Of a DNA stretch of 64,000 nucleotides, positions 12,105-20,120 are shown one piece after another; position 1 is the first letter of the stretch, and the number at the start of each line of letters is the position of its first letter. Under the pieces are notes generated by a model, which did no database searches, was not told the origin of the DNA, and saw only the letters and a program-made list of their open reading frames with translations. A program made the position numbers and the translations under genes. The stretch comes from Bacteroidota bacterium. GTDB taxonomy: Bacteria > Bacteroidota > Bacteroidia > Palsa-965. The stretch is taken from NCBI GenBank assembly GCA_020402865.1, contig JADBYT010000019.1:1-64000 (forward strand). The letters are read 5' to 3'.

Positions 12105-14813
12105 ATGAAACTAAGAATTGGTATTTTTTTCGGCGGCACTTCCCGCGAACGTGAAATTTCGTTTGCCGGCGGCCGCACGGTTTATGATAATCTCAACAAG
12201 GCGCTTTTTGAGCCGGTGCCTTTGTTTGTGGACAGTTTCGGCCAGTTTATCCTGCTCGACTGGCAGTATGTGTACAAAGGCTCCATCCGCGATTTTTATC
12301 CGCCGGTTGATCTCATCCCCGAATCGCCGGGCGAGTTTCAGATTTATGCCGAGAGCCTGAACCCCGATGCCATGCGGCGCCGCGAACTGGCTGCCCCGCT
12401 GGGCCGCCTTGTGCAGCCCGGCCAACTGGCCGAACTCATTGACCTTGCGTTCCTCTGCCTGCACGGGCCCGATGGCGAAGACGGCCGCATTCAGGGACTG
12501 CTTGAGTATCTTGGCATTGCCTACACCGGCAGCGGCATTCTGCCCTCGGCCATCGGTATCGACAAGGCCGTGCAGAAACGCCTTATGGTCAATGCCGGCT
12601 TTGCCTCGCCCGAATTCTTTACCGTGGAGCGCACGGCCTGGATGCAGGGCGGCCGGACCGATGTATTCAACCGCGCAAAAAGTGCCATTGGCTTTCCGCT
12701 GGTGGTTAAATCGGCCACACAAGGCTCATCCATTGGCGTTACCATTCTGCGCGAAGCCGACCCGGCTGCGTTTGAAGCCGCCATCGACAAAAGCTTTTTC
12801 ATTACCACGCTCACTGCCGCGCAGTGGAACGGTATGGACGATAACGCCCGTCTAGTTTTCCTGCGTACACTTACCGATATACGCGAAGGCATCGGACTGC
12901 CGGCCATTTTCACCGCCGAAGGCATCCAAAGCCAGACCGTGTGGCACCCCGACGAACTGCTGCAAAAACTCAATGCCCACTTTGCCGCCAGCCAAGCAGC
13001 AGTGCGCCTCGAAGCACTTAACGCCGAAAGCGAAGTGCTCATCGAAGGCTTTATTGCCGGCAAGGAATTTTCGTGCATTGTGGTGCAGGACGAACTCGAC
13101 CAGCCCGTGGCCCTGCCGCCCACCGAAATACGCAAAGGCGGCGAACTTTTCGACTACCGCTCCAAATACCTGCCCGGCCTCTCGCGCAAGATTACGCCCG
13201 TAGAACTGCCCGATGCACAGATCGAAGAAATACGCACCGAATGCGAGCGCCTGTTTAATGCACTCCGCTTCGATGTGTACGCCCGCATCGACGGGTTCAT
13301 TACCGCCGAAGGCCGCATTTTCCTCAACGATCCGAACACCACTTCGGGCATGATGCCTTCGTCGTTTTTCTTCCATCAGGCCGCCGAAATCGGGCTCAAT
13401 CCCTCGCAGTTTCTCACCTACATCATCCGCACCTCGCTGCGCCGCCGCATCCGCGCCGATAAAAACGGCCACCGCTTCAACCACCTGCTCGATGCACTTG
13501 ACGCAGCCATGCACCATGCCCGCACGCAAAGCACACAGAAAACCCGCGTGGCCGTGGTACTTGGCGGCTACTCGTCGGAAAGGCATATTTCCGTAGAAAG
13601 CGGCCGCAATATTTACGAAAAGCTGGCTTCCTCAACCCGCTATGCGCCCGTGCCTGTGTTCCTTACCGGCAGCACCGGAGCGCATGAGTTGTATGTGATT
13701 CCGGTAAATGTGCTGCTGAAAGACAATGCCGATGATATCCGCGAGAAAATCAACCACTGGAATGTACATCCCGTGGTGCAGCGCATCATCAACACCTGCA
13801 CGTCAATTACACATACCTATTCCGACGCCGGTGCATTAGCCGCGCCCCGCCGCATTACATACGAAGAGCTGGGCACGGAATGCGATGCTGTGTTTATTGC
13901 CCTGCACGGCCGCCCCGGCGAAGACGGTGCCGTGCAGGAAAAGCTTGATGCCATGGGCATTCCCTACAACGGCTCGGGCAAAGCCAGCTCGGAAATTACC
14001 ATTGATAAATACCGCACCAACGAAATTCTCCGTCAGGGCGGTTACCTTGTGGCCGAACACATGCTGGTTACTGAGGCCGACTGGCAAAGCAGCCGCAGCG
14101 CCATTCTCGAAAAGATAAATACACAGATTGGCTGGCCGTTTATTGCCAAACCGGTTGATGATGGCTGCAGTTCGGCTGTGCGCCGCATTAAGACCGAAGC
14201 TGAGCTGGATGCCTTTGCCCGCCTCATTTTCCGTAAAACCGAGGAACTGGATGCCGAATCGGCAGCACTGCTCAAGATCAAGCCCAAAGAAGAATTTCCG
14301 CTTAAAACGGTTTTTCTGGTCGAAGAACTCATCAGCAAACGCGGCGCAACACATTTCCTCGAAATTACCGGCGGCATGCTTACCCGTTACAATGCGCAGG
14401 GCGAACTGGAATACGAAGTATTTGAAGCCTCCGAAGCCCTTTCGGAAGGCGAGGTGCTTTCGCTCGAAGAAAAATTCCTGGCCGGGCAGGGACAAAATAT
14501 AACCCCCGCACGTTATGCTTTGAATGCCGCCGACCGGGCAAAGATTTCCGAACAGGTAAAGGCAACCCTCGGCGGGGCTGCACGTCTGCTCAATATTCAG
14601 GGCTACACCCGCATTGATGCCTTTGTGCGCGTGTTTGCCCCCGAGCATATTGAAACCGTTTTTGTAGAAGTGAACTCGCTGCCCGGAATGACGCCCGCTA
14701 CCTGTATCTTCCATCAGGCCGCCATTAACCAGTACAAACCGTATGATTTCATTGACCGCATTCTTGATTTTGCATTCGAACGCAAAAAGCGGCAACTGAC
14801 TTTATCCCACTGA
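12105..14813 (+). CDS. ddl: Tandem-fused D-alanine-D-alanine ligase-like protein (two ATP-grasp ligase modules)
   Basis: 902 residues, more than twice a usual Ddl of about 300-360. Two complete ligase-like modules follow each other: N-domain GGTSREREIS at 10-19 and again GGYSSERHIS at about 485-494; HGPDGEDG in the first and HGRPGEDG in the second. Module 1 keeps E15, GSSIG at 207-211 and the omega-loop FDYRSKY at 349-355, but its metal-binding segment reads LNDPNT, with Asp409 where Ddl has Glu. Module 2 has DGCSSAV (687 on) and the canonical FVEVNSLPGM with E855 and N857, but its omega-loop is LSLEEKF, without the Tyr residues. Each half is thus altered at a different place. The reaction expected is ATP-dependent joining of two D-Ala for peptidoglycan. 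It is followed one base later by the PASTA gene. Confidence 0.88.
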   Translation: MKLRIGIFFGGTSREREISFAGGRTVYDNLNKALFEPVPLFVDSFGQFILLDWQYVYKGSIRDFYPPVDLIPESPGEFQIYAESLNPDAMRRRELAAPLGRLVQPGQLAELIDLAFLCLHGPDGEDGRIQGLLEYLGIAYTGSGILPSAIGIDKAVQKRLMVNAGFASPEFFTVERTAWMQGGRTDVFNRAKSAIGFPLVVKSATQGSSIGVTILREADPAAFEAAIDKSFFITTLTAAQWNGMDDNARLVFLRTLTDIREGIGLPAIFTAEGIQSQTVWHPDELLQKLNAHFAASQAAVRLEALNAESEVLIEGFIAGKEFSCIVVQDELDQPVALPPTEIRKGGELFDYRSKYLPGLSRKITPVELPDAQIEEIRTECERLFNALRFDVYARIDGFITAEGRIFLNDPNTTSGMMPSSFFFHQAAEIGLNPSQFLTYIIRTSLRRRIRADKNGHRFNHLLDALDAAMHHARTQSTQKTRVAVVLGGYSSERHISVESGRNIYEKLASSTRYAPVPVFLTGSTGAHELYVIPVNVLLKDNADDIREKINHWNVHPVVQRIINTCTSITHTYSDAGALAAPRRITYEELGTECDAVFIALHGRPGEDGAVQEKLDAMGIPYNGSGKASSEITIDKYRTNEILRQGGYLVAEHMLVTEADWQSSRSAILEKINTQIGWPFIAKPVDDGCSSAVRRIKTEAELDAFARLIFRKTEELDAESAALLKIKPKEEFPLKTVFLVEELISKRGATHFLEITGGMLTRYNAQGELEYEVFEASEALSEGEVLSLEEKFLAGQGQNITPARYALNAADRAKISEQVKATLGGAARLLNIQGYTRIDAFVRVFAPEHIETVFVEVNSLPGMTPATCIFHQAAINQYKPYDFIDRILDFAFERKKRQLTLSH

Positions 14814-14814
14814 T

Positions 14815-15615
14815 ATGCTCAAGAATATACTGGCCTTTATTAAAAGCCGAACCTTTTTAATCAATCTCGGTATTGCGCTCGGTGGTGCGTTTTTACTTAT
14901 CTGGCTTATTTTCGGCTGGATGAGCATGTACACCCGTCACGGCGATACGGTGGATGTGCCCGATTTTGTGAACCAGAAACTGGTTGCGCTCGATAAGTTT
15001 GTGGAAGGCAAAAATGTGAGCTACGAAATTGTGGATTCACTCTGGGATCCGAAAAAAGCCAAAGGCGTGGTGATCCGTCAGGAACCCCTGCCCGGAAGTA
15101 AAGTAAAAGACGGACGTAAAATTTACCTCTACGTTACAGCTACCGTGCCTCCTAAAATTGGTATGCCGCAGCTCGAAAACCTTTCGCTGCGGCAGGCGCA
15201 GTATGTGTGCGAAAGCTACGGACTCAAAATGAAGCACAAGCTGGTAAACAATTCGTGCAACGGTTGTGTGGTGGAGCAGCGGTACAATGGCAAGCGTATC
15301 GAAACCAATACGCCCATTGATAAAGGTTCGCTCATTGAATTGTTTGTGGGGAAAGGGGAGGAGGAAAGTTCGGGCATGAAAATTCCGAATCTGCTGGGAC
15401 TTACGGTGCGTGCTGCGCGTGGTAAGCTCATGGATATGGGGTTGGAATGGATGATTATTGCTGATGAGGGCGTGAAAGACACGCTCAATGCGTATATTTA
15501 TGAACAGACACCGGCTCCCGAAGGCGACCGCCAGATTGTGCCGGGGTCTGTGATTGATCTCCGGGTCTCGGCCAGTAAAGGCGGTGATCCGGCAGAAGGA
15601 AAAGATCCTGAGTAA
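14815..15615 (+). CDS. Membrane-anchored PASTA-domain protein
   Basis: 266 residues: short cytoplasmic N-terminus, one membrane helix at about 14-36, then three PASTA repeats outside (roughly 43-110, 111-182 and 187-256), with DVPDF, GMPQLENLSLRQA and KIPNLLGLTVRAA as repeat starts. PASTA domains bind peptidoglycan fragments or beta-lactams. There is no kinase domain. The start is one base after the ddl-type stop, so the two form an operon; ddl next to a PASTA gene is a common Bacteroidota arrangement. It could tether or sense peptidoglycan synthesis. Confidence 0.9.
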   Translation: MLKNILAFIKSRTFLINLGIALGGAFLLIWLIFGWMSMYTRHGDTVDVPDFVNQKLVALDKFVEGKNVSYEIVDSLWDPKKAKGVVIRQEPLPGSKVKDGRKIYLYVTATVPPKIGMPQLENLSLRQAQYVCESYGLKMKHKLVNNSCNGCVVEQRYNGKRIETNTPIDKGSLIELFVGKGEEESSGMKIPNLLGLTVRAARGKLMDMGLEWMIIADEGVKDTLNAYIYEQTPAPEGDRQIVPGSVIDLRVSASKGGDPAEGKDPE

Positions 15616-17703
15616 ATGAAAAAAGGAATTATTTGCGCAGCCCTGCTGGCTGTTTCATCGTTTGTTGAGGCACAGATCAATGGCCAACGGGCTGAGCAAA
15701 CAAGCTCGCCGGTTATTTTGTCTGAGTTTGACCAAATCGTACCAGGACGATATCGTATTTCTCACTCTGGTGATACTATTTTTCCAACCGGTAAAGGACC
15801 AGTTGCTGTTACCTCCGTTCAGGTAAAATCTCCCGGAGAATACCTTATGCCCCTGCGTTCGAACCCCGTGCAGGCCGAATTTGCCGGTAAATATGCCATG
15901 CAGCGCAGCGCCGTAGCGCCCGGCGATACCATTACCCTGCCCGCCAACGGCAGCGGCATTACCGACGATTTCAGCTACGATTCGCACATACCTGATACCG
16001 TGCTCTGGAACCGCGATGCCGTGCAGCCCAACAATGGCAACTACTCCGGCGTATTTATCAATCGCGGATGGGCCATTGCGCCTATCGACATCGGGGTGTG
16101 TACGTTTGACGGGCTCGACTTCACCGGCATGCCTTACGATCCGCTGGCGGGCACAAGCAGCGTGGCTCCGGCCGATTATCTAACCTCCAACTGGTTCAAC
16201 CTTTCGTCGAAAACCATAGCCGATTCGGTGTACATCCGCTTCTTCTGGCAGGCACAGGGCCGTGGCTATGCGCCCAATGCATCCGATTCGTTTTTACTGC
16301 AGTTCAACTATCCCGCCATTGGCAACGATTGGGAAACCGTGTGGTTTCAAACAGGTTACACGCCCTCGTTCAGCGATACCAATTTTCATGTGGCGATGGT
16401 GAAACTTGATAATCCCGCTTACTTTGCCAACGGCTTCCGCTTCCGTTTCCGCAACTATGCCTCCATTTGCGGCAGCAACGACCACTGGCATCTCGACAAT
16501 GTGCGCATTAAGGAACTTTCCAATATCAACGATACAGTGGTAGGCGGCATCCGCTATGCCTATGAACCCAAAAGTTTGCTGGTTAACTACACGCAAATGC
16601 CCTGGTGGCACTACAACCAAAGCCCGCTGCCCGTAGTTACCAACCAGCGCCTGTTTGTGCGCAATAACGGTACACAGTCAACCTCGTTTACCAACGCCGG
16701 TTTTGAAGTGCGTAACAGCAGCAGCACGTTACTTTTTTCGGCAAACAACAGCGGCGGTTCGTTTTGTACCTCGTATGCCATTGATGGTTTTTACGACGAT
16801 CCTACCGGCCCCAATGTGTGGAATCCGACAATGACCGCCATTACCGGCTTTCCGGCCATGACCGGCCCTGATTACTTTACCACTGATTACGAATTCAGTG
16901 CCGGTGCACAGGGACGCGATTCGGCACGGGCCGTGCAGCGGTTTAACAATTTCTATGCTTACGATGATGGCACCGCCGAAGTGGGCTATGGTCTTTATGG
17001 TGTGAATTCGCTGCTTGCCTACCAGTTTACGCTGCCTGCTGGTGTGACAGACACGCTGAAAGCTGTGCAGATGTATTTCCTGCCTGTACAGGATATCGAC
17101 AATATTGATCTGCGCCAGTTTCGTCTCACCGTGTGGAGTAACGGCGCAGGCAATCAGCCCGGCACCATCATTTACCAGCAAAGCGGCGAAACGCCCGACT
17201 ATTCAACTGATGCCCCCAATCGGTTTGTGACCTATACCATTGACAGTGGTTTGGTAGTTTTGTCGGGTACATATTATATTGGCTGGCAGCAATTTGCCAT
17301 TGACCGGATGTATATTGGTTTTGATTTTAACAATAACCGTTCAGACAAAATCTTCTACAACACCAACGGAACCTGGTACACCTCAATTTTTGAAGGGGCA
17401 TTGATGATGCGCCCGGTTTTCCGCACCGGCCCCGATCTTTCGGGTGTGGACGAAAACGAAGTGACCGAAAGCAATTTACTGTTCCCCAATCCGGCCAGCG
17501 GTACTGTGCAAATCCGCAACTGGAACGGCAGCGAACAGTTTGCTGCAGAAGCTATTGACATGACCGGGCGTACTATACTGCAAACGCAGGTAAGCAACGG
17601 CAGTATTGATATTTCGGCTTTGCCGGCGGGTGTGTATTTCTTCCGTCTGCGCAACCTCCAGACCGATGCATTTTCTACGCAGCGCATTGTAGTAGCACAA
17701 TAA
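15616..17703 (+). CDS. T9SS type A sorting domain-containing secreted protein
   Basis: 695 residues. Signal peptide about 1-19 (ends VEAQ). The middle (about 100-300) has a jelly-roll look with a cargo-type segment HWHLDNVRI, as in MAM-like or carbohydrate-binding folds of Bacteroidota secreted proteins. The last ~75 residues are a Por secretion tail: LLFPNPASGTVQI, then DMTGRT, then ALPAGVYFFRL and a final IVVAQ. It is exported by Sec and then T9SS to the surface or outside. The ATG follows the PASTA stop directly (TAAATG), so it may be cotranscribed. No catalytic motif is evident. Confidence 0.85.
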   Translation: MKKGIICAALLAVSSFVEAQINGQRAEQTSSPVILSEFDQIVPGRYRISHSGDTIFPTGKGPVAVTSVQVKSPGEYLMPLRSNPVQAEFAGKYAMQRSAVAPGDTITLPANGSGITDDFSYDSHIPDTVLWNRDAVQPNNGNYSGVFINRGWAIAPIDIGVCTFDGLDFTGMPYDPLAGTSSVAPADYLTSNWFNLSSKTIADSVYIRFFWQAQGRGYAPNASDSFLLQFNYPAIGNDWETVWFQTGYTPSFSDTNFHVAMVKLDNPAYFANGFRFRFRNYASICGSNDHWHLDNVRIKELSNINDTVVGGIRYAYEPKSLLVNYTQMPWWHYNQSPLPVVTNQRLFVRNNGTQSTSFTNAGFEVRNSSSTLLFSANNSGGSFCTSYAIDGFYDDPTGPNVWNPTMTAITGFPAMTGPDYFTTDYEFSAGAQGRDSARAVQRFNNFYAYDDGTAEVGYGLYGVNSLLAYQFTLPAGVTDTLKAVQMYFLPVQDIDNIDLRQFRLTVWSNGAGNQPGTIIYQQSGETPDYSTDAPNRFVTYTIDSGLVVLSGTYYIGWQQFAIDRMYIGFDFNNNRSDKIFYNTNGTWYTSIFEGALMMRPVFRTGPDLSGVDENEVTESNLLFPNPASGTVQIRNWNGSEQFAAEAIDMTGRTILQTQVSNGSIDISALPAGVYFFRLRNLQTDAFSTQRIVVAQ

Positions 17704-18539: not shown

Positions 18540-20120
18540 ATGAACCCATTTTTCCGTAACTCATTTTTTGCTGCCGTATTTACGTTATGCGTGCTGCAAC
18601 TTCAGGCACAGGCTCCGTTTGTGCAGGCGTATTCTGCTTTTCCTGCTAATCAGGATCAGATTGAACCTTCGGCGATGACGCAATGTGCCAATTCAGATTT
18701 GCTGCTGGCCTGGACAGAAAATCCGGGTTTTCTGATTTCCAGTTTTGGTGTGATTACGCGCACTGCTTCTAACGGCAGTGTGCTCTGGTCGTCGAAACTT
18801 GATGATTTTGACACGACCACAAACATTACCATCCGTACCATAGGCGAAAACAGTGATGGTTCGATCTGGGTGTTTGGTCAGTTTGAGGAGTTTTCCAGTT
18901 TATTCTATAAAAATTATTTTGTGGCCGAACTCAGCGCCGCCGGTACGTTGAACTGGTCGAAATTTTACGAAGTAACCAATACCTATCTGGTGGGCAATCC
19001 CGGCTGTCATAAAATGTATGATGGAGGCTACATGCTCCGGCTTTCGTTTGATACACATGTACAACTCCTGCGCACAAATGCCAACGGTACGTTGCGTTGG
19101 GGTAAATTATACAGTACAGATACCACAGGTGCAAAATTCAGAGGGCGCGGTGTGGCCTTGCCCGATAGTAATTATGTAATTATCGGTAAAAGCGGCGATT
19201 TTCTTTCTTACATAAAAATTGATACAGCCGGCAATGTACTTACCAGTTACAGGATGCAGGGCTGGTGGAATCCCGGCGATGGTGTGCTGGGAGGTATCTC
19301 ACTGTTGCAGGACAACAGTATTATGGTATCAGGCAGAAGTGATAATGATCCGTATCTGATGAAATTTGATCCGCAGGGAAATGTGGTGTGGATAAAAACC
19401 TATACATCCACCACAATCAATACCGATGTACTTTTTTATCTGATGCCTGCATCAAACGGAACGGTGTATGGTGCCGGTACACGTAATTCTCCGGTAAACA
19501 TTTCAGCACTTGGTCAGCTGTTTCAGTTTGACACAAGCGGAAATGTACTGCAGGCTGCTGCCTGTATAGATAATACGATTGTACCATCGAGTTATTCATT
19601 GCCCATGCTGGGTAATGCCGATGAAATTTTTGTGCTGGAAAACGGAACGGCACAGGGAGCTGCAACCCGGTTGTATAAAATTGGCAGTGTGTTGGGTGCC
19701 GCCTGTAATATGCAGGATATCACCACAACCATTACAACCCATACACCGCTGCCCCCGCAACCGGTTATTTACACCCGGTCAGATGGCTGGACCGTGGGCC
19801 GCGATTTTTCGTTTACGCCGTTTGCTCTTATCGCCACGCTTCAATGCAATGCCACAGGTGTAAATGAGTCGTCGGTAAATGAAGCAATGACACTTTTCCC
19901 CAACCCTGTACAGTCTGGCGGCGTGGTTACATTTACAGCTGCAGGCACCACTGCGTGGCAGCTTACCGATGCCGCCGGCCGCACCGTACTTAATGACCAG
20001 ACTACCGGCGGCACTGTACAAATTTCACTCAGCCAGCTCAGCAGCGGCGTGTATGTATTTACAGCACACAATGAAAACGGCCAGCTGCAAAACCGACAGA
20101 AGCTTATTGTTACGCAGTAG
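18540..20120 (+). CDS. T9SS type A sorting domain-containing protein with beta-propeller-like repeats
   Basis: 526 residues. Signal peptide about 1-24 (ends LQAQA). The middle carries repeated blades of the form G(S/T)xxWxKxY with D(G/N)xxxxG(R/K)S turns, for example LLRTNANGTLRWGKLY and LMKFDPQGNVVWIKTY, as in Bacteroidota surface propellers. The C-terminus is a Por tail: TLFPNPVQSG, TDAAGRTV, LSSGVYVFTA and a closing LIVTQ. Exported by T9SS. A strong bidirectional terminator follows. Confidence 0.85.
   Translation: MNPFFRNSFFAAVFTLCVLQLQAQAPFVQAYSAFPANQDQIEPSAMTQCANSDLLLAWTENPGFLISSFGVITRTASNGSVLWSSKLDDFDTTTNITIRTIGENSDGSIWVFGQFEEFSSLFYKNYFVAELSAAGTLNWSKFYEVTNTYLVGNPGCHKMYDGGYMLRLSFDTHVQLLRTNANGTLRWGKLYSTDTTGAKFRGRGVALPDSNYVIIGKSGDFLSYIKIDTAGNVLTSYRMQGWWNPGDGVLGGISLLQDNSIMVSGRSDNDPYLMKFDPQGNVVWIKTYTSTTINTDVLFYLMPASNGTVYGAGTRNSPVNISALGQLFQFDTSGNVLQAAACIDNTIVPSSYSLPMLGNADEIFVLENGTAQGAATRLYKIGSVLGAACNMQDITTTITTHTPLPPQPVIYTRSDGWTVGRDFSFTPFALIATLQCNATGVNESSVNEAMTLFPNPVQSGGVVTFTAAGTTAWQLTDAAGRTVLNDQTTGGTVQISLSQLSSGVYVFTAHNENGQLQNRQKLIVTQ

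Follow-up and report, generated by a model that had tools for sequence, protein, structure and literature searches.

A conserved tandem D-Ala-D-Ala ligase with two differing active sites in Bacteroidia

As an essential enzyme and a target of antibiotics, D-Ala-D-Ala ligase (Ddl) has long been studied, and accounts of it give a homodimer of a single module. Tandem ATP-grasp halves that have diverged in function are found in the large subunit of carbamoyl-phosphate synthetase. In the Ddls of lactic acid bacteria, Phe at the position of Y216 in Escherichia coli DdlB goes with depsipeptide activity and Tyr with dipeptide activity (PMC5996685). LmDdl2 of Leuconostoc mesenteroides is reported to have Ala at the S150 position, and DdlB is reported to gain weak D-Ala-D-Lac activity with Y216F and S150A (cited in PMC7691350). 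A search of open-licence papers for tandem, duplicated or pseudoenzyme Ddls, for Cytophagales and for Pontibacter, Spirosoma and Rufibacter found no description of a protein such as the one reported here.

The window analyzed, a stretch of 64,000 nucleotides from a Bacteroidota bacterium, contains at 12105–14813 (+) an open reading frame of 902 amino acids plus stop that begins with the ATG at 12105; relatives share the same start residue and there are orthologs of the same length. From domain matches, alignment and structural match, the chain consists of module 1 (M1; residues 1–455, 12105–13469, +), a Y-type Ddl, and module 2 (M2; residues 479–902, 13539–14810, +), which is F-type and Ddl-like. 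Between them is a linker (residues 456–478, 13470–13538, +) that is mainly a single helix (459–478) in the secondary structure of the model. M1 and M2 each matched PF01820 and PF07478, giving two Ddl N-domains and a Ddl C-domain match across both halves in Pfam, and the top NCBIfam matches of the 902-residue protein were Ddl models. The preliminary description had read two complete Ddl modules in this one chain, and the frame, its length and its domains all bear this out. The modules share 27% identity across 471 aligned positions, and M1 has an insert of about 70 residues at about 233–300. Scored singly with TIGR01205, M1 reached 216.6 and M2 148.8 bits, both under the cut-off of 245.65, and both were far under the cut-offs of the VanA/VanB-type models. 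The AlphaFold model (mean pLDDT 85.8, pTM 0.86) predicts a Ddl fold for both modules. Modeled M1 came structurally closest to Thermus Ddl 6u1d (Z 35.2 over 320 residues). For modeled M2 the top VIA match was LmDdl2 1ehi (Z 36.8, 340 residues, 2.6 Å), tied with DdlA 3i12 (36.1). The model does not resolve the active-site lids, as pLDDT is low in the omega-loops of M1 and M2.

Equivalent residues were assigned by aligning the modules with DdlB and DdlA of E. coli and with 18 standalone Ddls from Bacteroidia. In DdlB numbering, S208, E321, K354, Y355, D409, and N411 of M1 correspond to S150, E187, K215, Y216, E270, and N272. M1 retains E15, H63, E68, K97, K144, S150, E180, E187, K215, Y216, R255, D257, N272, and S281 and departs with D409 for E270 and S414 for P275. 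The Ser150-Glu187-Tyr216 triad, K215, R255, D257, and N272 expected of a Ddl are invariant in M1 of 121 tandems, and at Glu270, where a strict definition of the family would ask for Glu, all 121 have Asp409 and thus still a carboxylate. By alignment, D409-P-N411 (13329–13337, +) takes the place of the metal ligands E270-x-N272. In the M1 omega-loop (residues 345–358, 13137–13178, +), which was placed by alignment and conservation and has low pLDDT in the model, Y351, K354, and Y355 correspond to Y212, K215, and Y216.

In M2, C688, E753, K790, F791, E855, N857, and T866 correspond to S150, E187, K215, Y216, E270, N272, and S281. M2 retains the set conserved in M1, and also E270 and P275, except at S150 (C688), Y216 (F791), and S281 (T866). 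Further changes nearby are V152 to S690, G153 to A691, and Y210 and Y212 to Leu (L785 and L787). In the alignment C688 (14166–14168, +) and F791 (14475–14477, +) occur in 121 of 121 tandems, and the metal ligands E855-V-N857 (14667–14675, +) were identified from alignment and conservation. M2 therefore lacks the Ser150 and Tyr216 of a Y-type ligase in all tandems. It has the Phe preceded by Lys of an F-type ligase (K790-F791), and Cys rather than the Ala of an LmDdl2-like ligase at S150. These changes fall at exactly the two positions that divide dipeptide (Tyr) from depsipeptide (Phe) ligases. In a first alignment His750 appeared to replace Glu187 in M2; this was dropped when the standalone Ddls placed E753 there. 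The residues quoted in the preliminary description (S208, E321, Y351, Y355, D409, E855, and N857) are all where it put them and its M2 omega-loop LSLEEKF lies at 785–791, but it overlooked S150 to Cys, V152S, G153A, and S281T in M2 and P275 to S414 in M1, and left unstated that both modules have a Glu187 equivalent (E321 and E753). It had named an alignment placing the Tyr and Glu equivalents in both modules as evidence against altered sites; ours places Tyr in M1 and Phe in M2, and Glu in M2 and Asp in M1.

Conservation was measured over 121 tandem rows, 95 of them distinct at 90% identity, with a lowest pairwise identity of 38%. D409 and S414 in M1 and C688, F791, and T866 in M2 are invariant throughout, so neither chance nor sequencing error accounts for these changes. 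Also invariant in M2 (121/121) are K635, K682, E753, K790, R836, D838, E855, and N857. Of 20 M2 active-site positions tabulated, 18 are strictly invariant, A691 varying in three rows and L787 in one; against a baseline of 18% invariant among all M2 positions, this indicates strong constraint on the M2 active site. In a pseudoenzyme one would expect catalytic or metal residues to be missing, or constraint to be relaxed. The metal ligands, lysines, and arginine of M2 are invariant, and its mean column entropy (1.17 bits) does not exceed that of M1 (1.28 bits). Judged by this conservation, M2 is neither a decaying pseudoenzyme nor a dead copy and is conserved as much as M1. Near-invariant motifs also occur at homologous places in the modules, Y57-K-G-x-I-R-D-F-Y-P66 in M1 and L538-K-D-N-A-D-D-I545 in M2, and neither was seen in the standalone Ddls of the alignment; that of M2 partly persists in truncated relatives. 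We infer from this pairing that the two motifs may form a pseudo-symmetric inter-module contact.

The source genome (4.89 Mb, 100% complete by estimate) has exactly two PF01820 N-domains, both in the tandem frame. The preliminary description had asked whether the genome encodes another, normal Ddl; none was found, the remaining ATP-grasp matches lacking a Ddl N-domain, and the tandem is the only Ddl. One frame of 875 residues (G000:C41:4576-6165), whose matches are of the ATP-grasp and Mur-ligase-like kinds, resembles cyanophycin synthetase. No genome among 56 relatives with a match had a tandem together with a standalone Ddl, and each had one of the two; in incomplete genomes some tandems are broken or turn up more than once at contig ends, and the single standalone Ddl of one genome (G030) is in two fragments. 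In a sample of 396 genomes of the class, at least 150 had a full or near-full tandem, a few of these being cut at contig ends. Most carriers are uncultured Bacteroidota, and the cultured Rufibacter roseus and Pontibacter cellulosilyticus are among them. A phylum sample yielded two tandems in 148 genomes, but the listed genomes are mostly other families of the same class, so this number has little bearing on spread beyond the class. One tandem, 65% identical to the window protein, is on a contig labeled Candidatus Saccharibacteria that is probably misbinned Bacteroidota.

Two bases past the tandem stop codon, the apparent operon continues with a gene (14815–15615, +) for a membrane-anchored PASTA protein. 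A PASTA gene adjoins Ddl in many Bacteroidia relatives and, because these include several standalone Ddls, the tandem probably occupies the ancestral ddl locus. In one relative (G299:C5:245789-248488) the tandem and the downstream transmembrane PASTA protein form one frame of 1200 residues, suggesting that Ddl and the PASTA membrane protein are physically linked. Farther downstream in the window, the frames at 15616–17703 (+) and 18540–20120 (+) have C-terminal type IX secretion sorting domains, the first matching Pfam Por_Secre_tail and the second judged by eye.

A natural loss of M2 was found in one GTDB-style family (f67), which was sampled in depth (61 genomes). In 59 of these, from 36 genera, the protein is a chain of 555–677 residues made up of M1 and a remnant of the M2 N-domain; of the other two, G428 has a chain cut at residue 247 and G413 has fragments only. 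The same truncated form occurs in G403, which belongs to another family. In the 34 truncated proteins read, every M1 catalytic residue is kept, D409 included (34/34), and position 414 is again Pro (34/34). The whole M2 ATP-grasp half is absent and the M2 GGxSxE loop is gone in most. What survives of M2 is the N-domain segment equivalent to residues 533–572 (PxNxLLKDNADDI...HP...IT; 13701–13820, +), with K539 in 34 of 34 and the HP and IT, and this segment probably contacts M1. No other protein covering the N-terminal Ddl region was found in five truncated-form genomes checked. One genome with a truncated tandem (G207) has a 328-residue ATP-grasp protein like the C-terminal half of Ddl (G207:C1, 499–1482, +); having neither GGxSxE nor HGxxGEDG, it was rejected as a canonical Ddl.

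In the tree, M1 and M2 group together against single Ddls (98/95) on long stems, which suggests that they arose by duplication in place. AU tests rejected neither M1 with DdlA-like Ddls (p 0.175) nor M2 with DdlB-like singles (p 0.174), and they are compatible with internal duplication and with fusion of two old Ddls alike. The truncated forms make up one clade nested within M1, beside the Pontibacter and Rufibacter tandems (100/100), which indicates that M2 was lost from a tandem ancestor.

As the genome has no Ddl but the tandem, and as f67 and G403 keep M1 with just a remnant of the M2 N-domain, M1 is almost certainly the housekeeping D-Ala-D-Ala ligase. With Tyr at Y216, a Ser-Glu-Tyr triad and a D-x-N metal site, it would in all likelihood make D-Ala-D-Ala for MurF. 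The ATP-grasp kinase Asp1 uses Asp333 and Asn335 of an Asp-x-Asn site in metal binding (PMC9765450); by this analogy, Asp409 appears compatible with catalysis. D409 also persists in the proteins whose sole ligase module is M1, which argues that it is no lesion. The preliminary description's two complementary lesions are therefore not supported. Its division of labor is well supported for a catalytic M1, since f67 keeps M1 and has no M2 ligase domain, whereas the invariant ATP, metal, and substrate residues are hard to reconcile with a merely structural M2. The different dipeptide product that it also proposed may apply to M2, which has Phe at the place where depsipeptide ligases do (PMC5996685). 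MurF is present in the source genome, and a second MurF is in a long frame of 829 residues resembling a MurF-Alr fusion (the pair is at G000:C2:59225-60496 and G000:C10:247184-248437); nearly all of 59 class genomes searched have such a pair. Two MurFs for two dipeptides were considered and rejected, since the second MurF occurs throughout the class whether the Ddl is tandem or single. VanX-like M15 peptidases were likewise dropped as a sign of D-Lac chemistry, as they do not track the tandem (14/34 tandem versus 7/22 single genomes).

The explanation we favor, and consider fairly probable, is that the tandem is the housekeeping Ddl in the form of a covalent pseudo-dimer, in which M1 is the D-Ala-D-Ala ligase and M2 both braces M1 and acts as a ligase with an altered acceptor or as a sensor. 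From what truncation leaves, the M2 N-domain would pack on and support M1. The invariance of the M2 active site suggests that it can still bind ATP, Mg, and a D-amino acid. Given Phe at the Y216 position and Cys at that of S150, we would expect M2 to act as an ATP-dependent ligase whose acceptor is relaxed or altered, or else as a ligand sensor for M1. Some findings run counter to this. The omega-loop aromatics Y210 and Y212 are replaced in M2, which makes it uncertain that the F-type rule from lactic acid bacteria carries over, and the ligase half of M2 is dispensable in one family. Nor do VanX-like peptidases and a second MurF, partners that a depsipeptide route might call for, track the tandem.

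Two narrower accounts of M2 seem to us rather unlikely, and about equally so. In the first, the tandem would be a bifunctional double ligase in Gram-negatives, a Y-type M1 making D-Ala-D-Ala and an F-type M2 making a second D-Ala-X, depsipeptide or other, from one housekeeping gene. If true, this arrangement has been maintained across much of the class Bacteroidia and lost once. In the second, M2 would be an allosteric regulator that binds ATP and D-Ala or D-Ala-D-Ala and tunes M1 without turnover. The residues of M2 that bind ligands do not vary, whereas the lid pair at S150 and Y216 is altered, and the return of M1 S414 to Pro exactly where M2 has been lost suggests adaptation of M1 to M2; the pTM of the model may also point to a fixed arrangement of the modules. 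However, a pure regulator would usually have given up its metal ligands and its catalytic lysines or arginines, and M2 keeps K635, K682, K790, R836, D838, E855, and N857 in every tandem.

We give little credence to the idea that both modules are ordinary D-Ala-D-Ala ligases and that fusion serves only to double the enzyme and to lock the normal dimer in place. In crystals Ddl forms dimers (PMC6899670), nearly all catalytic residues are kept in both modules, and DdlB with Y216F folds and binds phosphinate (1iow). By contrast, 18 of 18 standalone Bacteroidia Ddls keep S150 and Y216, with E270 and P275 invariant as well, and functional redundancy leaves the fixed Cys and Phe of M2 unexplained. 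Equally improbable is that M2 is a mere pseudoenzyme scaffold for M1: f67 did discard the ligase half and keep the 533–572 segment, but in tandem lineages the M2 active site is held as tightly as that of M1, and a scaffold has no need of invariant metal ligands. Mis-assembly or misreading of two neighboring genes, conceivable for a source genome in 49 contigs, is already refuted by the presence of the same open frame in at least 150 genomes, including the cultured species named above and the single-contig genomes G305 and G086.

In much of Bacteroidia the standard Ddl has given way to a covalent pair of Y-type and F-type modules, and annotation alone is no safe guide to the dipeptide terminus in such bacteria. 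The sister family provides a ready natural deletion of M2, so that asymmetry of the Ddl dimer, its regulation and its choice of acceptor become directly testable.

Compared with known systems, each module shares with E. coli DdlB and DdlA (TIGR01205, PF01820 and PF07478) the fold, the Pfam domains, and the ATP-grasp and D-Ala residues, and the tandem shares its PASTA gene neighbor with several standalone Bacteroidia Ddls. It differs from the E. coli enzymes in having two modules per chain, Asp in place of the metal Glu in M1, and Cys and Phe at the S150 and Y216 positions of M2. Like the F-type D-Ala:D-Lac ligase LmDdl2 (1ehi), M2 has a K-F motif at Y216 and a changed S150; unlike it, M2 has Cys rather than Ala there, has lost the omega-loop aromatics and is fused to a Y-type module. 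The metal site of M1 resembles the Asp...Asp-x-Asn of the inositol pyrophosphate kinases Asp1 and PPIP5K2 (PMC9765450), a comparison that covers the metal site only, the substrates being unrelated. As in the large subunit of carbamoyl-phosphate synthetase, tandem ATP-grasp modules have probably diverged in function, although in another family and reaction and with no sign in the tandem Ddl of a tunnel or shared intermediate. The tandem Ddl is a real and conserved variant of a known enzyme, undescribed in the open-licence papers searched.
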